DNA of 64,000 nucleotides from Deltaproteobacteria bacterium (GTDB taxonomy: Bacteria > Myxococcota_A > UBA9160 > PR03). Of the stretch, positions 1 to 54,215 are shown in pieces. The position numbers and the translations under genes were made by a program. The notes under the pieces are model-generated. The model was not told the origin of the DNA. It worked only from the letters and a program-made list of their open reading frames with translations, and ran no database searches. Position 1 is the first letter of the stretch, and each line of letters starts with the position of its first letter. The stretch spans positions 62,001 to 126,000 of the forward strand of contig JAPSFT010000009.1 of assembly GCA_035063765.1 (NCBI GenBank). The letters are read 5' to 3'.

Positions 1-795
1 GCCCGCCACCGCCGCGAGCACGACCAGGGCCGCCGCGATCGCCGCCAACAGGCGCAGCCCCGGGTGGCGTCGCCACGGAGCCTCGCCACGCAGCTCGAGG
101 GCGCGCCCCACGAGCAGCGCCACGACCAGCCAGGCGAGGGTCACCTGGTACGGGGGATAGGTCGCCAGGGCGAAGCAGGCTCCTGCGAAGCCGAGGCCGG
201 CGCCGCTCGCGACGATTCCGGCCCGGCTTTGCGCGCGCAGCAGCGAGGCGGCCGCCAGGAACACGCCGCCGCCGGCGGCCGCGATCGTCGCGGACTGGAA
301 GTACGACCAGAGCTGGAAGAAGGGCGCTGCGGTGACGGCGAGTGCGCCGATCCCGGCCAGGTCGGCGCGCCCGGCCGACACCACGAAGAGTACGCCGTAC
401 CACACCGCGAACAGCCCGAGAACGCGCGACCACCAGAGCCATGCCACCCCGACGTCGCCGCCCAGGAAGAAGCCCCAGACGGTCGGCCGGAAGGCGACGA
501 GCGGGTGCGCCACGGGCAGCTCGAAGGGCACGAGGGCGCTCTGGCCGAGGGCGATCGACTCGTTCACGAGCGGGAACGGCGGATCGTGCGCGCGCTGAGC
601 GAGCGCGAGCGGCAGGTGCACCTTCCAGTCGTCCGAGCGGATCGACCGGGGCGCCCCGAGCAGCACCTCGCCCGGCTCGCTGCCGTCGATCACCTGGTGC
701 CACATCGCGAGCGAGAAGCCATGCACGCGCAGGCCGACCAGCAGCGCGAAGACGAGCAGCACGCCGGCCGGCACGGCCCAGGGCGAGCGCCTCAT
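1..795 (-). CDS. polytopic membrane protein, 5' part (gene runs off the window edge)
   Basis: The gene starts at ATG 795, overlapping the stop of the upstream gene as ATGA, and stays open to base 1, so the C-terminus is outside the window. The visible 265 residues hold a charged start (MRRSPW), a first membrane helix, a soluble segment containing 'GAPRSIRSDDWKVH', and then several hydrophobic helices. A conserved IRSDDW-like segment after the first helix, followed by many membrane spans, is typical of large bacterial membrane proteins related to GT-C glycosyltransferases and YfhO-like proteins; I use it only as a hint. Coupling to the next GT39-like gene suggests a joint role in surface glycan or lipid glycosylation. 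Confidence 0.6.
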   Translation of the reverse strand, partial: MRRSPWAVPAGVLLVFALLVGLRVHGFSLAMWHQVIDGSEPGEVLLGAPRSIRSDDWKVHLPLALAQRAHDPPFPLVNESIALGQSALVPFELPVAHPLVAFRPTVWGFFLGGDVGVAWLWWSRVLGLFAVWYGVLFVVSAGRADLAGIGALAVTAAPFFQLWSYFQSATIAAAGGGVFLAAASLLRAQSRAGIVASGAGLGFAGACFALATYPPYQVTLAWLVVALLVGRALELRGEAPWRRHPGLRLLAAIAAALVVLAAVAG

Positions 796-36604: not shown

Positions 36605-38647
36605 TCAGGTGATCCCTGGCTCGAGGAGCGGCAGACGCCGTATCACCTCCGTCATCTCCGCGAGCAGCCCAGAGGGCGTGCCGTGGCCGGTGACGACGAG
36701 CTTCACCTGGGCACGCGTCGCGCCCACGTAGAAGCGAGCACGCGACTCGCGGTCGGTGCCGAAGCCCTGCGCGTTGACGAGGAAGACGACCGGTGCGTCG
36801 TAGCCCTTGGCGGCATGGACGGTCGAGAGTGTCAGCCGCCCCTCCTCGAACACGAGACGATCCCTGTCCCTGCGGCTCTTCGGTACCCGGCAAGCCACTC
36901 CGGCCTCCTCGAGACCCGCCCGGAACGGCTCGAGCGCCTGCCAGCCGTAGTCGGACTGGATGAGGATCTCCTCGGGACGCACCTGCTCGCAGTGCAGGAG
37001 GTCCCGGACTCCGGTGACGACCTCGTTCACCTCTTCGGCCACGTTCTCGAGAACGTGCAGGAGCGGAGCGGCACCTGGTCGTTGAGCAAACTCGATGACG
37101 ACACCATTCTCGGTCTCGAGGAACTGATCGCTGTCGCGTAGCGACTGGACGTCCGCAAATCCTCGCATGCCGACACGATCGGACTCGGCGGAAGCCGTAC
37201 CGAGCAGGACGTTGAAGGCGAAGGTCGCGATCGGTCTCGAGGTGCGCCGGCTCCTATTCATTGCAACGGTGCGCCCGCCTGTCACGTGAATGCCCAGGTC
37301 ACGCCAGACCGGCCGGGGGCGCCCATAGAGGTTCTGGGCATCGTCGTAGAAGAAGGCGATGCCCCGCTCCTGCGTCTTCGGGTGGAGGCGGCTGAGACGA
37401 TGGAGGATGCGCAGCGCTTGCGGGTGGAGGTCCTGCGCCTCGTCCACGAAGACGAAGTCGAAGAGCAGCTCGTGCTCGAGCGCCTCGTCTCCATCGAGCA
37501 GTTCTTCGACTTGGTCGAAGACGAAGGGGAGGCGCTCCTCGTCGGGGGTCTTCTTGCAGGAGGGCACCTCGAGACCCCACTCCTTCCCCATGCGGGTGAG
37601 AAGACCCTCGAAGTGGGAGAAGGTCAGGTCCGAGGCGTCCAACTCGAGTCGCGCCATGCTTGCAAACGCATGGACGTCTCGGCAGAGCAGCGGGACGAGG
37701 GCGCGGTTGAAGCAGGTCACGAGGATCCGCGGGCGAGGGGCGCCAGGCTCTGCGTGAGCATGGCGGGATTCCAACAGGTCGACGAGGCCCTTGGCCAGGA
37801 GGATCGACTTGCCACTGCCCGCCACGCCGCGCACGAGCGTCGGGTGCCCGTCGAGGGGACGCAGGGCGATCCTGCGCTGGTCTGGATAGAGACAGTTGCC
37901 GTCCTTGAGCCGGTCGATCTCTTCCCCGACGCCAGCCGATCGACGCTCCTTCCTGAGATCGCGGAGATTCGGCGGCAGAAGGCCGAGCGTGCGGTCGAGG
38001 AGCTCGATCGACCGGGATGAGGTGGGAAGCCGTCGTCGAGAACCTTCGCAGCCGCGTCGAGCCGCTCGTGCTAGCGCGCTGCGCAAGGCCTCAGGCTCCA
38101 ACGTCTCTTCGAAGAGGAGATGGTCGTAGGGGATCTGCTGGTCCGCGAAGGGACAGGCAGCCAAGTCCTTCTGGGATACGCGAGGAAGGACCACGGCAAA
38201 CGAGACCGGGGGATATGGGATCTCGAGCTTCCGACTCTGCTCCTCCAGCTTCCTGAGCAGGAATCTCAAGCTGCCGTCCACCTGTTCGAACACCGTCCTA
38301 TGACGATTCCCGTAACGGACCGTGAGGCCTCGACCGCTCCAGCCGAGCTCACGGACCGGATGCCCCTTCACCTCGATGACAACGGCCCCGATCGTCGGGT
38401 TTGCCACCAAGATGTCGGCTGTCTCGTAGACGGGGCTTCGCGGATCGCGCACGCTGTAGTAGACCGAGGTGGTCTTCTCGTTGCAATACGCCTCGAGGGT
38501 CGCAGTCAACACCTGCAACTCGCACTCGACACCACCATGTGATGGATCGATGCTCGCGTGCGATGGCCCCAGGAAGCGATTCCCTCGCTGGCAGAAGATC
38601 TCCCTGGCTTTGGCGAACCTGCGGAGCACTTCGGTGTAGTTTGCCAT
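36605..38647 (-). CDS. NERD-domain superfamily I (UvrD-like) helicase
   Basis: This 680-residue protein has an N-terminal nuclease-related NERD domain ('YETADILVANPTIGAVVIEVKG'), then a UvrD-type motor. Walker A is 'LVRGVAGSGKSILLAKGL' (near 273), motif II 'FDFVFVDEAQDLHP' (near 402), a later motif is 'SRRTSRPIATFAFNVL', and motif V/VI is 'STVHAAKGYDAPVVFLVNA' with 'FYVGATRAQVKLVVTG'. NERD-helicase proteins occur in defence loci such as Nhi-like systems. Its composition is less GC-rich than neighbours, marking the edge of the accessory region. It is the first gene on the 5' side of the tmRNA. Confidence 0.88.
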   Translation of the reverse strand: MANYTEVLRRFAKAREIFCQRGNRFLGPSHASIDPSHGGVECELQVLTATLEAYCNEKTTSVYYSVRDPRSPVYETADILVANPTIGAVVIEVKGHPVRELGWSGRGLTVRYGNRHRTVFEQVDGSLRFLLRKLEEQSRKLEIPYPPVSFAVVLPRVSQKDLAACPFADQQIPYDHLLFEETLEPEALRSALARAARRGCEGSRRRLPTSSRSIELLDRTLGLLPPNLRDLRKERRSAGVGEEIDRLKDGNCLYPDQRRIALRPLDGHPTLVRGVAGSGKSILLAKGLVDLLESRHAHAEPGAPRPRILVTCFNRALVPLLCRDVHAFASMARLELDASDLTFSHFEGLLTRMGKEWGLEVPSCKKTPDEERLPFVFDQVEELLDGDEALEHELLFDFVFVDEAQDLHPQALRILHRLSRLHPKTQERGIAFFYDDAQNLYGRPRPVWRDLGIHVTGGRTVAMNRSRRTSRPIATFAFNVLLGTASAESDRVGMRGFADVQSLRDSDQFLETENGVVIEFAQRPGAAPLLHVLENVAEEVNEVVTGVRDLLHCEQVRPEEILIQSDYGWQALEPFRAGLEEAGVACRVPKSRRDRDRLVFEEGRLTLSTVHAAKGYDAPVVFLVNAQGFGTDRESRARFYVGATRAQVKLVVTGHGTPSGLLAEMTEVIRRLPLLEPGIT

Positions 38648-39103: not shown

Positions 39104-40549
<1,446 letters not shown>

Positions 40550-40550
40550 G

Positions 40551-40754
40551 CTAAGCCTTCCTCCGATCTCCACTCGTGGAGACGTCCCGATCGTCCTCGC
40601 GGGCGGCTTGTTCCATCAGGCGCACGTACTCCCGAGCGAGGTCCTCGGCGATGTGGTCGAGGAGCGCTGCCACGGCGGGATCGATGGAGGCAGGCCGGGC
40701 GGGTCCTTCCCGGCTCGTCCTCACCTTCACGGCCGCCGTCTTCGATCGTGCCAC
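40551..40754 (-). CDS. small protein ahead of the recombinase
   Basis: This 67-residue protein starts at GTG 40754, which follows AGAGGAG; the longer ATG start at 40778 would sit inside the operator dyad and is less likely. The sequence has a basic start and a helix 'AVAALLDHIAEDLAREYVRLMEQAA'. Its stop is one base before the recombinase ATG, so it is co-transcribed. Unrecognised; small proteins in this place often assist or regulate the recombinase. Confidence 0.6.
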   Translation of the reverse strand: MARSKTAAVKVRTSREGPARPASIDPAVAALLDHIAEDLAREYVRLMEQAAREDDRDVSTSGDRRKA

Positions 40755-41855: not shown

Positions 41856-44675
<2,820 letters not shown>

Positions 44676-44679
<4 letters not shown>

Positions 44680-45746
44680 AGCGTGAGGCGAAACTGCTCC
44701 TGGCCAAGGCGAGCGACTCGCTGGTCCTGGCCATCGAGATTTTCAACCGCCCTCATGATCGGGGTCGAGTCAGCAGCACACTGATCCAGCTCGATCATGG
44801 CTTCGAGATGCTGATGAAGGCCGCGATCCTGCACCGAGGAGGACGCATCCGTGAGAAGCGGGCCAAGGAGACAATCGGCTTCGACGCCTGCGTACGACGG
44901 TCGCTCAGCGACGGCAAGATCAGGTACCTGACCGAGGAGCAGGCCCTCGTACTTCAGACGCTCAACGGCCTGCGCGATGCCGCACAGCATCACTTGCTCG
45001 ATATCTCCGAAGGTCAGCTCTACGTGCACGTGCAGTCGGGCGTCACGCTGTTCCGTGACCTCTTGAAGAACGTGTTCGACCAGGACTTTGCAGGCGAATT
45101 GCCGGCACGCGTGCTCCCGGTCTCGACGGCGCCCCCCACGGACCTAGCGACCCTGTTTGAATCCGAGGTTGCCGAGATCAAGAAGCTCTTGAAGCCAGGT
45201 CGACGTCGTCACGTTGAAGCCTTGGCCCGACTTCGTCCGCTGGCGATCCTGGACGCGACGATCCAGGGCGAGAAGGGCCAGCCCAGCGATGGAGACCTAC
45301 GACGGATCGGCAAAGAGGTTTTGCAGGGTCGCGCATGGGAAAAGGTGTTCCGCGGTGCAGTGGCGGTTGAGATCGCGGCGGATGGCACGGGACCGAGCCT
45401 GTCTCTGCGATTGTCGAAGAAGGAGGGCATTCCCATTCAGCTGGTGGCCGAGGGAACCCCAGGTGCGTCGGTCGTCGCCGTAAAGCGCGTCGATGAACTG
45501 GGGTTCTACAGTCTCGGCGCGAAGCAGCTCGCCGAGAAGGTTGGATTGACGATGCCGAAGGCGGTCGCGGTGGTTGATTATCTCGGTCTTCGCGACAAGG
45601 CTGAGTGCTACAAGGAAATCAAGATCGGCAAGGCTGTGTTCAAGCGCTATTCCCCGAGGGCCATCGACGAGGTCAAGCAAGCACTGCAGCATGAGAGCGC
45701 CGATAAGATCTGGGCGAAGCGCAATGGAGGTGGCCGCAAGCAATGA
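44676..45746 (+). CDS. DUF3644 protein inside the type I operon
   Basis: This 356-residue protein has the DUF3644 pattern near the start: '[39 protein letters not shown]', '[10 protein letters not shown]', '[38 protein letters not shown]'. The C-terminal part has a winged-helix look ('[37 protein letters not shown]'). It overlaps hsdS and hsdR by four bases each, so it is made with the restriction complex. The domain is common in defence islands; its activity is not established. Confidence 0.85.
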
Positions 45747-48700
45747 GCGGGCACTTCACCGAATCAACCGTCGAGCAGGCCGCCCTCGCCTGGCTGGAGG
45801 CCGGCGGCTGGCAGGTCGCCCACGGCCCCGTCATCGCCCCCGACATGCCCGCCGCCGAGCGCGCCGACTACGGCGAGGTGGTCCTCGCCCACCGGCTGCG
45901 CGACGCGCTCACGCGCCTCAATCCCGACCTCCCTACCGAAGCGCTGGAGGACGCCTTCCGCAGACTGTCGCGTCCCGAAGGCGCGGAGCTGATCCAGCGC
46001 AACCGGGCACTGCACCGGCTGCTGGTGGACGGTGTGACGGTCGAGTACCGCGACGCCGACGGTGCGATCCGTGGCGCGCAGGCGCGCGTGATCGGATTCG
46101 AGGACGTACAGGCCAACGACTGGCTGGCGGTCAACCAGTTCACGGTGGTCGAGAACAGGCACACGCGCCGACCGGACGTCGTGCTGTTCGTCAACGGCCT
46201 GCCACTCGCGGTGCTGGAGCTCAAGAACGCCGCCAGCGAGGATGCCACGATCTGGACCGCCTTCCAGCAGCTTCAGACCTACAAGTCCGAGCTGCCGGCA
46301 CTCTTCGCGACCAACGCCGTGCTGGTCGTGTCGGACGGTGTCGAAGCCCGCGTCGGGACGCTCTCGGCCGGTCAGGAGTGGTTCAAGCCCTGGCGCACGA
46401 TATCGGGCGAGGCGGTGGCCGACGCGCACGTGCCCGAGCTCCAGGTCGTGATCGAGGGGTTGCTGGCGCCGCGGCGCTTCCTGGATCTGGTGCGTGACTT
46501 CATCGTGTTCGAGGACGACGGCGGCCGCGTCGTCAAGAAGATGGCGGGCTACCACCAGTTCCACGCCGTGCAGGTGGCGGTGGGCGAGACGCTGCGGGCC
46601 GCCGAGCTGGCGCGCGCGGATCACGTGGCCGAGGGCGGCGGGCGCTACGAGGCGGGGCGCAGGCCGGGCGGCAAGCCCGGCGACCGGCGCGTCGGCGTGG
46701 TCTGGCACACCCAGGGCTCGGGAAAGAGCCTGACCATGGCCTTCTACGCCGGCCGCATCGTTCGCGAGCCGGCGATGGAGAACCCGACGATCGTGGTGCT
46801 CACCGATCGCAACGACCTCGACGACCAGCTCTTCGGCACCTTCTCACGCTGCCAGGACCTGCTGCGACAGCCGCCGGTGCAGGCCGAGAGCCGCGCGCAT
46901 CTGCGCGAGCTGCTCGCGGTGCAGGCGGGCGGCGTGGTCTTCACGACCATCCACAAGTTCTTCCCCGAGGAGAAAGGCGACCGGCACCCGACACTCTCGG
47001 AGCGCCGCAACATCGTGGTGATCGCCGACGAGGCGCACCGCAGTCAGTACGACTTCATCGACGGCTACGCGCGCCACATGCGCGATGCCCTACCGCACGC
47101 CTCGTTCATCGGCTTCACCGGCACGCCGATCGAGCTGCAGGACGCCAACACGCGCGCCGTGTTCGGCGGCTACATCAGCGTCTACGACATCCAGCGTGCG
47201 GTGGAGGACGGCGCCACGGTGCCGATCTACTACGAGAGCCGGCTTGCGAAGCTGGCGCTCGATGAGGCGGAACGGCCGAGGATCGACCCCGACTTCGAGG
47301 AAGCCACCGAGGGCGAGGAGGTCGAGCGCAAGGAGAAGCTCAAGACCAAGTGGGCGCAGCTCGAAGCCGTGGTGGGCTCACAGAAGCGGCTGGAGATCGT
47401 GGCGCGCGACATCGTCGAGCACTTCGAGAAGCGGCTGGACGCGAGGGACGGCAAGGCCATGGTCGTGTGCATGAGCCGGCGCATCTGCGTCGAGCTGTAC
47501 GACGAGATCGTCAAGCTGCGGCCCGATTGGGCGGGCGACGAGGACGGCGTTTCCGATGAGCGGGGCGCCATCAAGGTCGTCATGACCGGCTCGGCCTCCG
47601 ATCCGGTCGAGTGGCAGAAGCACATCCGCAACAAGCCCCGGCGCGAGGCGCTGGCCAACCGTTTCCGCGACCCCGCGGATCCGCTGCGCATGGTGCTCGT
47701 GCGCGACATGTGGCTCACCGGCTTCGACGCGCCGAGCCTGCACACGATGTACGTGGACAAGCCGATGCGCGGGCATGGGCTGATGCAGGCGATCGCGCGC
47801 GTCAACCGGGTGTTCGAGCGCAAGCTCGGCGGGCTCGTCGTGGACTATCTGGGGCTGGCGCACGAGCTGAAGCGGGCGCTCGCGACCTACACCGAGAGTG
47901 GCGGCACCGGGCGCACGGCCCTCGACCAGGACGAAGCCGTGGCCGTGATGCTGGAGAAGTACGAGGTCTGCTGCGGGCTCTTCCACGGCTTCGACCGTGG
48001 CAAGTGGACCACCGGCACACCGCAGGAGCGGCTCGGCCTGCTGCCGCCGGCCCAGGAGCACATCCTCGCCCAGGAGAACGGCAAGGACCGCTGCCTGCGT
48101 GCCGTCCGTGAGCTGTCGCAGGCCTTCGCGCTGGCGGTGCCGCACGAGGAGGCGCTGCGCATCCGCGACGACGTGTCGTTCTTCCAGGCCGTGGCTGCCG
48201 TGCTCGCCAAGCGCGCGCCCGGCGAGGCCCGGCCGGAGGAGGACCTCGATCACGCGGTCCGCCAGATCATCTCCCGCGCGGTGGCCCCCGAAGGCGTCGT
48301 GGACATCTTCGCCGCGGCCGGGCTCGAGAAGCCCGAGATCTCGATCCTGTCGGACGAGTTCCTCGCCGAGGTGCGCGGCATGCCGCAGCGCAACCTGGCG
48401 GTCGAGCTGCTGCAGAAGCTGCTCAAGGGAGAGCTGGCCACGCGGCGACGAAAGAACGTCGTCCAGGCCCGTTCCTTCGCCGAGATGCTGGAGCAGACCA
48501 TCCGGCGCTACCAGAACCGCGCGATCGAGGCGGCGCAGGTGATCGAGGAGCTGATCCAGCTCGCGAAGGATATGCGGGCGGCGAACGCGCGCGGCGAGAC
48601 GCTCGGTCTCTCGGAAGACGAGCTCGCCTTCTACGACGCCCTGGAGACGAACGACAGCGCGGTGAAGGTGCTCGGCGACGAGACCCTGCGCGGCATCGCC

Positions 48701-48895
48701 CGCGAGCTGGTCGAGACCGTGCGGAACAATGTGACCATCGACTGGACGCTGCGGGAGAACGTGCGTGCCCAGCTCCGGGTGCTCGTCAAGCGCATCCTCC
48801 GCAAGCACGGATACCCGCCGGACAAGCAGGAGAAGGCAACGCAGACCGTGCTCGAGCAGGCGGCGTTGCTGTCCGAAGTCTGGGCCACGGCGTGA
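45743..48895 (+). CDS. hsdR: type I restriction endonuclease HsdR
   Basis: This 1050-residue motor-nuclease has the PD-(D/E)xK core '[21 protein letters not shown]' (Asp145, Glu159, Lys161). Walker A is '[13 protein letters not shown]' near residue 320, the DEAH box is '[13 protein letters not shown]', motif III-like 'GFTGTPIE' and motif VI '[10 protein letters not shown]' follow, and a C-terminal helical domain contacts the methylase core. It translocates and cuts unmodified DNA. The gene looks intact. Confidence 0.97.
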
Positions 48896-48905
48896 GCTCG
48901 TGGGC

Positions 48906-50999
48906 ATGATCGAGCGGGGCGTGCGCTACGACGCGGAGCGCGCCCTGGAGCTGCTCCGCCTGGGATCGGGGCGGCGCGATGCCGTGTTCCGCGAAGGGCA
49001 GGGGGAGGCGATCCGTCACATTGTCGAAGGCGCCGGGCGGCTGCTCGTGGTGCAGAAGACGGGCTGGGGGAAGAGCTTCGTCTACTTTATCGCGACGAAG
49101 CTGCTGCGTGAAGCTGGTCTGGGCCCTGCGATCCTCATCTCGCCGCTGCTGGCCCTGATGCGCAACCAGATCCTCGCCGCCGAGCGCATGGGCGTACGCG
49201 CCCGGACCATCCACTCCGGCAATCAGGAGGAATGGGAGGAGGTCGAGCGCGCGATCCGGCGCGACGAAGTGGACATCCTGCTCGTCTCTCCCGAGCGGCT
49301 CGCCAACGAGCGCTTCCGCGAAGAGGTCTTGGCGCAGGTCGCCGATCGGGTTGCCCTGCTCGTGATCGACGAGGCCCACTGCATCTCCGATTGGGGGCAC
49401 GACTTCCGCCCGCACTACCGGCTGCTCGAGCGCATCGTGGGCACCCTCCCGTCGAGCCTGCGGCTGCTCGCGACGACCGCCACCGCGAACGACCGGGTGA
49501 TGGAGGATCTGGCGGCCGTGCTCGGGCCCGACCTGGCGATCTCTCGGGGAGACCTTCAGCGCCCCTCGCTTGCGCTCCAGACGATCCGCCTGCCGAGCCA
49601 GGCCGAGCGTCTGGCCTGGCTCGCGGAGCACGTGCCGGCGCTTCCGGGCAACGGCGTCATCTACACGCTGACTGTTCGCGACGCGGGGCAGGTGGCCGCA
49701 TGGCTCCGGTCGCGCGGGATCGATGTCGAGGCATACACCGGCGACACGGGCGATCGCCGTGCCGAGCTCGAGCAGGCGCTCCTCGAGAACCGCGTGAAGG
49801 CGCTGGTGGCGACGACTGCGCTGGGCATGGGATTCGACAAGCCTGACCTGGCTTTCGTCATCCACTACCAGACGCCGGGCTCGGTGGTGGCCTACTACCA
49901 GCAGGTGGGCCGCGCGGGCCGCGCACTCGATGCGGCCTACGGCGTGCTGCTGTCCGGCGAGGAGGAGACCGACATCACCGACTACTTCATCGAGAGCGCG
50001 TTCCCCACGCCCGAAGAGGTCGGTGCGGTGCTCGAGGCACTCGAGGCGGCGCCGCAGGGTCTTTCGGTGCGGGAGCTGATGGGCGAGGTCAATGTCAGCT
50101 TTGGGCGGATCCAGAAGACCATCGACCTGCTCTCGCTGGAGTCGCCCGCCCCGATCGCCAAGCAGGGCGCGAAGTGGCAGCTCACCGCCGCGAACCTGAG
50201 CGATGCCTTCTGGGCGCGCGCCGAGCGGCTCACGGCGCTGCGACGGGCGGAGCAGGGCCACATGCAGGAGTACGTGACCCTGGGTTCTGGGCACATGGAG
50301 TTCTTGATCCGGGCGCTCGACGGACCGCCCGGCGAGCTCTCACAGCCGGTTCTGCCGCCCCTGCCAACCACGGTAGATCCGGGGCTCGTCCGCGATGCGA
50401 TCGAGTTCCTGCGACGTACGAGCCTGCCCATCGAGCCGCGGAAGCAGTGGCCGGCCGGAGGTCTGCCGCGCTACGGCGTCTCCGGTCGCATCCCGAAGGA
50501 GCTCCAGGCCCAGCCGGGCAAGGCGCTCTGCGTGTGGGGCGATGCCGGCTGGGGGGCCTCGGTCCGGCTCGGGAAGTATCATGACGGTCGGTTCTCGGAT
50601 GATCTCGTTGAGGCTTGTCGGCAGCTCGTCGAGCAATGGGGCCCGGACCCGGCCCCGACGTGGGTGACTTGCGTGGCCTCACGGCGCCACCCTGACCTCG
50701 TGCCGGATTTCGCGCGACGGCTCGCCGGTGCACTCGGGTTTGCGTTCGAGTCGGTCCTGGTGAGGACGGATGACCGCCCGGAGCAGAAAACCATGGCCAA
50801 CAGCACCCAGCAGGCACGGAACGTTGATGGGTCACTGGAGGTTCGCGGCCGGGTGCGGGGCGAGCCCGTGCTGCTGGTAGACGACATGGTGGATTCGCGG
50901 TGGACCCTCACCGTGGCCGCCTGGCTGCTGCGCTCGCATGAGAGCGGCGTGGTCTGGCCGCTTGCCCTGGCCCAGACGGGATCGGGCTCCAATGACTGA
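48906..50999 (+). CDS. RecQ-like helicase fused to a phosphoribosyltransferase-like domain
   Basis: This 697-residue protein has a RecQ motor with Walker A 'KTGWGKS' (51-57), '[19 protein letters not shown]', '[12 protein letters not shown]', '[13 protein letters not shown]' and '[13 protein letters not shown]'. Then comes a winged-helix-like middle, and at the end a PRTase-type domain with the PRPP loop '[14 protein letters not shown]' (about 660-675). RecQ's usual zinc-binding and HRDC domains are not evident. The next gene, overlapping by eight bases, is DprA-like. PRTase plus DprA is the ShosT/ShosA pairing of a known anti-phage toxin-antitoxin-like system; here a helicase is joined to the PRTase. 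Confidence 0.87.
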
Positions 51000-52335
51000 C
51001 GCGCTCTCGCCGAACACGAAGGCGATCTTGCTGCTGACGGCCCCGTTGATCACCGGGCGCAGCAAGAAGTCCAGCGATCTCCTCACACCGGGCGAGTACA
51101 AGAAGCTCGCCAAGCACCTGCTCGAGCTGGGAGCGAAGCCCGCCGATTTTCTGGCCCCTGCAGCCGACCAGCTCCTCGGCGATTGCCACCGCGTGATCGA
51201 CAAGGCCCGACTCGAGCGCCTGCTGGCCCGGGGCTTCCTCCTGAGCCAGGCTGTCGAACGCTGGCATGCCCGGGCGATCTGGGTGGTGAGCCGGGCCGAC
51301 GGCACGTACCCACAGAGACTGAAGGCGCGTCTGCGCGAGAATGCTCCGGCCGTTCTCTACGGCTGCGGAGACAGGAAGCTCCTGGAGAGCGGTGGTCTGG
51401 CTGTCGTGGGCTCGCGCAACGTCGACGACGCACTGATCGAGTACACGCAGGAGATCGGCCGGCTCGCGGCGTCGGCCGGGCGAACGCTGGTTTCCGGGGG
51501 CGCCCGGGGCATCGACCAGGCGGCCATGCGCGGTGCCCTGGAAACGGGCGGCAGGGTGACGGGCGTGCTCGCGGACAGCCTCGAGAAGACAGCCATGCAG
51601 CGAGAACACCGGAATATGCTGCTGGAGGATCAGCTCGTCCTGGTCTCTCCCTATGACCCGAGTGCGGGGTTCAACGTCGGCCATGCGATGCAACGCAACA
51701 AGCTGATCTACGCCCTGGCCGATGCCGCTCTGGTCGTGAGCGCAGACCGCGGCAAGGGCGGCACGTGGGCCGGTGCGATCGAGCAGCTCGAGACGCTGCA
51801 CCTGGTGCCCGTCTTCGTGCGCACGACAGCGGGATCCTCCGCCGGGCTCGATGCGCTTGCTGAGAAGGGGGCGCTGGCTTGGCCGGAGCCGGTCGATGCC
51901 GATGGTCTGGCCGCCGCGATCGCGACGCCAGCCCCCGAGCACAGGCCTCCGGCGGACCAGGGGCAGCTCTCCTTCCCGCCGCCTCGGGATGGCGCGGGGG
52001 AGGTCCGAGAAGCGGGGACTCCCGCTTCCGTGTCTCCAGCGAGCTTTCCTCCAGCGGACCAACGCGAGCTCTTGGCTGCCGATGAGCTGTTCTCGACTGT
52101 GCGTTCGCTGGTCGTTCGGCTCGTGCGCGGACCCACGAAGGCAGCCGAGATCGCCCGCGGCCTGGGAGTCACCGGACCTCAGGCCCAGAAATGGCTGAAG
52201 CGTCTCGTGGAGGAAGGTGTGCTGGAGAAGAACAAGAAGGATGCGCGCTATTCGATCTCCCAGGCGCGTCTGTTCGAATCCGAGGGTGCGCGCGAGCCGG
52301 CCGCCAAGACCAAGCCTGCAGGAACAGGGGAGTGA
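50992..52335 (+). CDS. DprA/Smf-like protein with C-terminal winged helix
   Basis: This 447-residue protein has an N-terminal helical part and a Rossmann-like DprA/LOG domain ('[16 protein letters not shown]', '[23 protein letters not shown]', '[23 protein letters not shown]'). A low-complexity linker leads to a winged helix ('[33 protein letters not shown]'). Classic DprA loads RecA on incoming single strands. Here the operon context and the coupled RecQ-PRTase gene point to a defence role like ShosA rather than competence. Confidence 0.88.
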
Positions 52336-52697: not shown

Positions 52698-54215
52698 TCA
52701 GCCGAGGTCGCTGGGCAGCGTGACGGTGCCAGGCGTGGCGATGGCGCGGCGCGTGGCCTCGGCGAGATAGGCGGCGGGCTCGAGGCCAGCGAGCTTGGCC
52801 GACTCGAGCAGCGAGTAGAAGAGCGCCGCCACCTGGGTCCCGCGCAGGGACTTCGAGCCGTAGTGGTTCTTGCGCCCGACGACGAGGCCTCGCAGCGCGC
52901 GCTCGGTGGCGTTGTTGTCGAGCGGGATGGCCGGGTCGTCGAGGAAGCGCACGAGCCCGGGCCACAAGCCGTCGGCGTAGGCGATGGCCCGGCCGAGCCC
53001 GGACTGGGGCAGCACGCGCTGCGCGAGCATCCAGGCGCGGAGCTCTGCGACGAGCGGCGCCGAGCGCTCGCGGCGAAGGCGCGCGAGGTACGCAGCGGGA
53101 TCGTCGACCGTGGCCTTCTTCGCACAGGCCTCGACGTCGTAGAGCCGCCCGATCAGATCGAGGGCCTCGCCGGCCTGCGGGAAGGCGGGCTCGCACTCGA
53201 GGAGCTTCCTCCTCACGTGCGCCCAGCAGTGGGCGAGCGTGAAGCGGGCGGCCTCGGGCCCGTCGCGCATCTTGGCGAGCGTCGCGTAGCCGCTATAGCC
53301 GTCGCATACGACCACACCCGCGTAGTCGCGCAGGATCGCGCCCGCAGCCTGGGCGGAGCGCGAGGGGTCGATGCGATAGAAGACGCTGTCCGGGGCGGTG
53401 ATCGACCAGGCATACCAGCGTTTGCCGCCGCCGCGCTCGAGCAGCGGCCAGACCGTCTCGTCGGCCCCGACGACCGGCGCCGCAAGGACGTGCCCGTGCA
53501 GGGCCTCGTAGGTCGGGGCGAGGTGGTGGTGGAGGGCGAGGAGCTGGTCGAAGAGGGTCTGGGTCTCGACCGTGAGCCCGCCGCGCGCCATCTGGCGCAC
53601 CTGGCGGGCGAGCGGGAGATGGTCGGCGTACTTGGCAACGGCCACCGCGACGGCGAAGTCGACCGAGTAGCGGCCACCGGGCCGGAGCTTGGGCGCCCCG
53701 AGGGCGGTCTCGACGCACCCGCCGCAGCGGCAGCGGTACTTCTGGCGCCGGTGGCGGACGATCCGGAAGCTGCGCTCGACGACGTCGACCTCCTCGCTCT
53801 CCTCGTACTGGCCCGCCATCTCCGTGAGGGCGCCCCCGCAGGCGGTGCAGGCCTGGTCGGCCGGGTCGAGGGTGTGGAGGACCTCGACGAGCGGGAGCTT
53901 GGGCTGGGGGCGCGGGCCGTGGCCGCGGCGCGCTGCGGGCGGCGGAGGCGGCGGGGGTGCGTCGGGCGCCGGTGCGTCCGCCGCGGGGCGCTGCTCGGCG
54001 GAGCGGCCGAAGAGCTTGCGCTGCATCTGTGCGAGCTGCGTGCGCAGCGCCTCGAGCTCGAGCTGGAGCGCCACGCTGGCGTCCTTGCCCTCGAGCGCGG
54101 CGAGGCGCGCTACGAGTGTGGCGATGCGCTGGTGAAGCTTCGTGTTCTCCTGCTGCTGCAGGAGCGCCACCTGGCGCAGCACGTCGAGACGCGACTCGGT
54201 GGCGAGATCGATCAC
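52698..54215 (-). CDS. tnpC: IS66 transposase TnpC
   Basis: This 505-residue DDE transposase has an N-terminal leucine-zipper-like coiled coil ('KLHQRIATLVARLAALEGK') and a zinc finger ('CTACGG...CRCGGC'). The catalytic core has 'VGADETVWPLL' (first Asp), 'VVCDGYSGYATL' (second Asp) and 'PLDNNATERALRGLVVGRKN' (Glu). A C-terminal IS66 signature follows. It looks intact. Confidence 0.95.
   Translation of the reverse strand: MIDLATESRLDVLRQVALLQQQENTKLHQRIATLVARLAALEGKDASVALQLELEALRTQLAQMQRKLFGRSAEQRPAADAPAPDAPPPPPPPAARRGHGPRPQPKLPLVEVLHTLDPADQACTACGGALTEMAGQYEESEEVDVVERSFRIVRHRRQKYRCRCGGCVETALGAPKLRPGGRYSVDFAVAVAVAKYADHLPLARQVRQMARGGLTVETQTLFDQLLALHHHLAPTYEALHGHVLAAPVVGADETVWPLLERGGGKRWYAWSITAPDSVFYRIDPSRSAQAAGAILRDYAGVVVCDGYSGYATLAKMRDGPEAARFTLAHCWAHVRRKLLECEPAFPQAGEALDLIGRLYDVEACAKKATVDDPAAYLARLRRERSAPLVAELRAWMLAQRVLPQSGLGRAIAYADGLWPGLVRFLDDPAIPLDNNATERALRGLVVGRKNHYGSKSLRGTQVAALFYSLLESAKLAGLEPAAYLAEATRRAIATPGTVTLPSDLG

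Follow-up and report, generated by a model that had tools for sequence, protein, structure and literature searches.

The window analyzed here, a stretch of 64,000 nucleotides from a deltaproteobacterial genome, carries two adjacent genes that bring together a RecQ-type helicase, a phosphoribosyltransferase (PRTase) domain, and a DprA-like protein. The question is whether this pair is a helicase-fused variant of the ShosTA system that is still under-described, as the original prediction had it, or a member of a known family. PADLOC assigned the two proteins to PsyrT (E 2.1e-269, 893 bits, protein residues 10-694, model positions 5-687 of 689) and PsyrA (E 4.8e-135, 449 bits, model positions 3-396 of 398), and not to ShosTA; the ShosA model gave the second protein 89 bits (E 6.5e-26). 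Because both matches are nearly full-length and the PsyrA score far exceeds that of ShosA, the pair belongs to PsyrTA. Judged by its sequence, it is an ordinary PsyrTA (RqlHI) locus, that is, a new locus of an already described system.

The name PsyrTA, taken from Pseudomonas syringae, reportedly goes back to Sberro 2013. Published lists place PsyrTA both among the toxin-antitoxin families, with its validation credited to Sberro et al. 2013 (PMC8790059), and among the known defense systems (PMC10855318, PMC10121019); according to the literature, DefenseFinder detects it as well. The association of helicase, PRTase, and DprA was noticed in a comparative-genomics paper of 2017 (PMC5512222). The candidate therefore drops off the list of unknown systems, since PADLOC already detects the pair and its E. 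coli relative RqlHI has been studied genetically. Of lasting value are the question of how the PRTase head works as an enzyme, the disappearance of the RecQ zinc site from a whole clade, and the recurrence of the pair in type I operons.

Organization of the Locus

Re-reading of the open reading frames reproduced exactly the previously proposed extent of the pair (48906-52335) and its eight-base overlap, the sequence of which is ATGACTGA. PsyrT starts with ATG and has 697 amino acids, and PsyrA has 447 (Table 1). The placement directly behind hsdR in an island also held, with 10 bases between the hsdR stop (48895) and the PsyrT start on the same strand. Upstream on this strand, hsdM is followed by hsdS, a DUF3644 gene, and hsdR, each overlapping the next at its end, and together with PsyrT and PsyrA these genes look like one predicted operon of six genes. 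For hsdS, a later ATG (near 43429-43432) was taken as the start; with TTG 43423 the open frame would be longest. The DUF3644 gene, situated between hsdS and hsdR, matches a PADLOC candidate family. Directly downstream of the pair lies an IS66-family transposase gene.

Table 1. Features of the PsyrTA locus and its surroundings (window positions for genes, residues for protein parts).
Feature	Position	Strand	Evidence or remarks
NERD + UvrD-like helicase gene	36605-38647	-	PADLOC candidate C3a187, E 2.8e-18; GC 0.65
tmRNA gene	39104-39465	+	recombinase remnant beside it
Large serine recombinase remnant	39287-40573	-	recombinase and zinc-ribbon domains; frame runs into tmRNA antisense
hsdM	41856-43439	+	profile matches
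hsdS	43432-44679	+	profile matches
DUF3644 gene within hsd operon	44676-45746	+	PADLOC candidate PDC-S19, E 3e-154
hsdR, type I restriction subunit	45743-48895	+	profile matches; immediately 5' of PsyrT
PsyrT (RqlH-like), RecQ-type SF2 helicase with C-terminal PRTase domain	48906-50999	+	PADLOC PsyrT; structure model
PsyrT, helicase	~10-430
PsyrT, PRTase domain	~500-690
PsyrT, PRPP loop	659-667		DDMVDSRWT
PsyrA (RqlI-like), DprA-like	50992-52335	+	PADLOC PsyrA; PF02481; fold matches
PsyrA, helical region	N-terminal
PsyrA, DprA/LOG Rossmann	~92-294		followed by a linker
PsyrA, winged helix	~370-425
IS66-family transposase	52698-54215	-

Domain Architecture of PsyrT and PsyrA

The helicase part of PsyrT contains the Pfam domains PF00270 (DEAD) and PF00271 (Helicase_C), with the Walker A motif GWGKS (K56) and a DEAH box at 155-158. 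The protein misses the equivalog cut-offs for RecQ (254 vs 640 bits) and for DpdF of the Dpd system (165 vs 550 bits). In the full window protein the Pribosyltran domain is sub-threshold (E 9e-4, residues 602-679), but Pfam detects it in 11 of 13 isolated C-termini of relatives (best 4.7e-7). A profile built from the aligned C-terminal parts of these 13 divergent relatives matched PRPP synthetases in PDB (E 1e-5) and, with poorer scores, other phosphoribosyltransferases. The AlphaFold2 single-chain model of the whole protein has a pLDDT of 93.4 and a pTM of 0.91; when it was submitted to Foldseek, the matches listed were RecQ helicases only, which is uninformative on the PRTase part. Taken together, Pfam, the relatives' C-termini, the PDB profile, and the model bear out the proposal of a RecQ motor and a PRPP-loop domain in one chain, and by these profile and model data the PRTase fold in the PsyrT C-terminus is real. 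Phosphoribosyl transfer by this domain is an unproven prediction.

Kinship with ShosTA, as proposed earlier, is confirmed only in part. The PADLOC ShosT model matches the isolated PRTase domain in 12 of the 13 relatives (E 1.5e-5), so a distant relationship of the PRTase domains stands, and a DprA-like partner is likewise common to PsyrTA and the ShosTA (DprA-PRTase) systems. However, ShosT is a single PRTase (a model of 237 positions) with no helicase, whereas the PRTase of the window is fused to a helicase part of about 500 amino acids and the best near-full-length match is PsyrTA. A variant of ShosTA was rejected on these grounds of profile scores and architecture. PADLOC models PDLC02866 and PDLC02869, labeled DpdF, also match the PRTase part of each of the 13 relatives. 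Either the domain is present in DpdF too, or RecQ-PRTase proteins underlie some of the DpdF models.

The PRPP loop of the window protein has Arg at the position of the usual Gly. A PRTase inactivated by this residue is an unsupported reading, because many family members have Arg and the E. coli copy, with Ala at this position, is of a toxic type.

The second gene encodes a DprA/LOG domain with a winged helix, as anticipated: PF02481 (DprA) matches PsyrA at E 1e-36, in fold it is best matched by ShosA (8zva) and Streptococcus pneumoniae DprA (3uqz), and the Pfam matches to the C-terminal winged-helix region fall under the curated cut-offs. Both DprA and PRTase domains are known among competence genes (PMC5512222), and the pair could be imagined as a DNA-uptake module of DprA and a ComF-like PRTase. 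We rejected this reading as extremely improbable. PsyrA misses the DprA equivalog cut-off (TIGR00732, 92 vs 191 bits), the genome has a separate and more canonical DprA elsewhere (234 bits vs 129 for PsyrA), and no competence family occurs among the first 25 of 63 and the first 25 of 54 neighbor families.

Family Survey

A genome scan for homologues returned 80 loci. About 25 of them are 64-77% identical although they come from many phyla, which points to horizontal spread. In 69 of the 80 loci PsyrA is the gene directly downstream of PsyrT, and several others stop at a contig edge; a domain order and a gene pair recurring so often are not due to chance. Nearly all aligned sequences have a PRPP loop of the form DDxx(D/N/G)S(R/G/A/K/T)WT, and in the alignment of 64 sequences D659, S664, W666, and T667 are invariant and D660 nearly so. 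Among the genes adjacent to PsyrTA elsewhere are BrxL, JetD, HamA, and GmrSD.

The RecQ zinc cysteines (CGxCxxC) divide the family. They are missing in 19 of the 64 sequences, including the window PsyrT and that of P. syringae, and are kept in the remaining 45, in most cases all four of them. The sequences that lack them form a single clade (support 100/100) comprising the window PsyrT, those of L001-L020 that were aligned, L073, L074, and L091. On this alignment and tree, loss of the zinc cysteines is a clean subfamily mark. The P. syringae locus (L074) belongs to the same subclade, its PsyrT being 71% identical to that of the window, and has the same RecQ-PRTase toxin followed by a DprA-like antitoxin. 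It differs in context, as the window pair follows hsdR immediately and in the same orientation, and the hsd operon there includes a DUF3644 gene.

The RqlHI pair of E. coli has the same domains, order, and tested residues, and the window PsyrT is about 50% identical to the ST131 homologue L089. Two differences separate them. All four zinc cysteines are retained in the E. coli copies and missing from the window PsyrT. The location differs as well: the ST131 and EDL933 records that were examined have the pair in the core genome, with gntU and yhgN on either side and no restriction-modification genes, whereas the window pair lies at the end of an hsd operon.

Distribution and Genomic Island

PsyrT is a single-copy gene, and the other RecQ-like genes of the genome are at most 41% identical to it over the helicase part. 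No PsyrT match at E 1e-100 was found in 60 relatives, the same genus included. In a profile search of the phylum (379 genomes), 16 of the matches listed reach the PRTase end of the model. Six of these 16 are genuine PsyrTA loci with adjacent PsyrA (the window and L138-L142), one (L143) stops at a contig edge, and the other nine resemble the window PsyrT in the helicase part only and have no PsyrA. The RecQ-like proteins of L144-L152, which match the PsyrT profile to its PRTase end and have no PsyrA neighbor, resemble the RqlH-only pattern of Gram-positive bacteria.

The module has a GC content of 0.68-0.69, compared with 0.75 in the flanks. On the left, the flank at 27-35 kb shares synteny with a genome of the same genus to shortly before the tmRNA gene of that genome; nothing there matches downstream of tmRNA, and the counterpart of the right flank (59.4 kb onward) is on another contig. 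Thus, the region 39.5-59 kb is variable. No direct repeats marking an island end were found within the window. The tmRNA gene probably served as an integration site. In one relative (G003) the same contig carries its final 29 bases again, 25 kb downstream; in G001 they recur on another contig, and in the genome itself they are single-copy. A large serine recombinase remnant runs into the tmRNA gene in antisense, and a catalytic resolvase domain was not found in this remnant. Just before the tmRNA, the stretch with the NERD/UvrD-like gene does not align to the same-genus genome.

Genetics of Relatives and Proposed Mechanism

A pair of this kind, in the order rqlH-rqlI, was studied as RqlHI in extraintestinal E. 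coli F11 by Russell and Mulvey in 2015 (PMC4670107). RqlH without RqlI causes SOS induction, filamentation, and growth loss; this toxicity is abolished by deletion of the PRTase domain or by D663A, and the isolated PRTase domain is insufficient for it (PMC4670107). RqlI neutralizes RqlH in E. coli, its winged helix being dispensable, and co-precipitates with RqlH only when the PRTase domain is present (PMC4670107). The residues tested in RqlH are conserved in the window: D663 of F11 is the second Asp of DDIVDS in L089 (ST131, same numbering) and corresponds to D660, and the helicase residues K49 and D148 are K56 and D155 in the window protein. Most Gram-positives carry RqlH without RqlI (PMC4670107), so the partner is not always needed.

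Anti-phage activity has been reported for this class of system. Protection against T7 and lambda is provided by a DprA-PRTase pair (PMC9122126). ShosT is reported to be a phosphoribosyl transferase and pyrophosphatase that upsets purine metabolism, with T7 Gp0.7 as the trigger (PMC12593503); by analogy, PsyrT might act through similar chemistry. We consider it likely that the two genes of the window form a toxin-antitoxin module of the anti-phage class, namely PsyrTA (RqlHI), with PsyrT as the toxin and PsyrA as the antitoxin; for this organism we infer both the anti-phage function and the trigger. In such a module the RecQ motor of PsyrT would engage DNA and deliver or regulate the PRTase head, which would do the damage, probably on nucleotides or DNA-associated bases, leading to DNA stress and growth arrest. 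PsyrA, a predicted nucleotide- or single-stranded DNA-binding protein translated from the overlapping start, would hold the PRTase head inactive. An infection that disturbs the complex, through single-stranded DNA, host takeover, or lost PsyrA synthesis, would free PsyrT and result in abortive infection.

Another scenario is DNA maintenance, in which PsyrT processes or modifies DNA or nucleotides during repair, PsyrA resolves the product, and toxicity is a by-product of partner loss. This model was proposed by Russell and Mulvey and agrees with their SOS data (PMC4670107). The core-genome site in ST131 and EDL933 speaks in its favor, as does a native E. coli PsyrTA for which phage protection was not detected (PMC12409345). 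Expression of that native pair caused a growth defect (PMC12409345). However, the window pair is sporadic, not having been found in the 60 relatives, and lies in a low-GC island with a type I restriction-modification system, and the neighbors elsewhere include BrxL, JetD, HamA, and GmrSD. We regard DNA maintenance as unlikely for this locus, and favor the anti-phage toxin-antitoxin reading.

Linkage to Type I Restriction Systems

In unrelated lineages, too, the pair is found next to or within type I operons. Type I genes lie beside PsyrTA or within 10 kb of it in 9 of the 80 loci (L001, L002, L003, L006, L021, L033, L053, L050, and L060). In Vibrio, Providencia, and an E. coli IncF plasmid the pair is nested between hsdS and hsdR, the order in the plasmid being N-6 methylase, hsdS, PsyrT, PsyrA, hsdR. 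L002 has a neighboring hsdR with 66-68% identity to the window hsdR, in a reversed gene order. Insertion of toxin or defense genes into hsd operons is also seen for PrrC, which is located within a type IC operon, and for DarTG2 and TgvAB; these are other toxins, and the window pair follows hsdR and does not lie between hsdS and hsdR.

Such placement raises the possibility of a guard, with PsyrTA restrained while HsdRMS works and released when a phage blocks it, as for PrrC with EcoprrI. The position of PsyrT 10 bases behind hsdR would fit a guard, as would the nested loci, the first seven of the nine loci above, a 52-amino-acid hsdM remnant adjoining the pair in L039, and the precedents of PrrC and DarTG2. 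On the other hand, most PsyrTA loci have no type I genes nearby, and gene order varies among the loci. In the phylum sample not chosen by neighborhood, type I genes are near the pair in none of five PsyrTA loci; coupling to type I systems is therefore optional, and an obligate coupling was rejected. The original suggestion that RecBCD or HsdR products could be sensed by the pair is a conjecture and overstated. The gap between hsdS and hsdR also takes unrelated cargo such as DarTG2, so simple clustering explains the linkage. We judge a guard to be quite improbable and treat the linkage as ordinary island clustering, although its repeated occurrence makes the guard hypothesis testable.

A narrower version of the guard concerns the zinc-less PsyrT clade, in which HsdR or HsdRMS might keep PsyrT silent until phage anti-restriction releases it, making PsyrT a DNA-damaging counterpart of PrrC; we hold this to be very doubtful. 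In the closest relative of the window locus by the tree (L001), hsdM and hsdS lie upstream of the pair and hsdR downstream.
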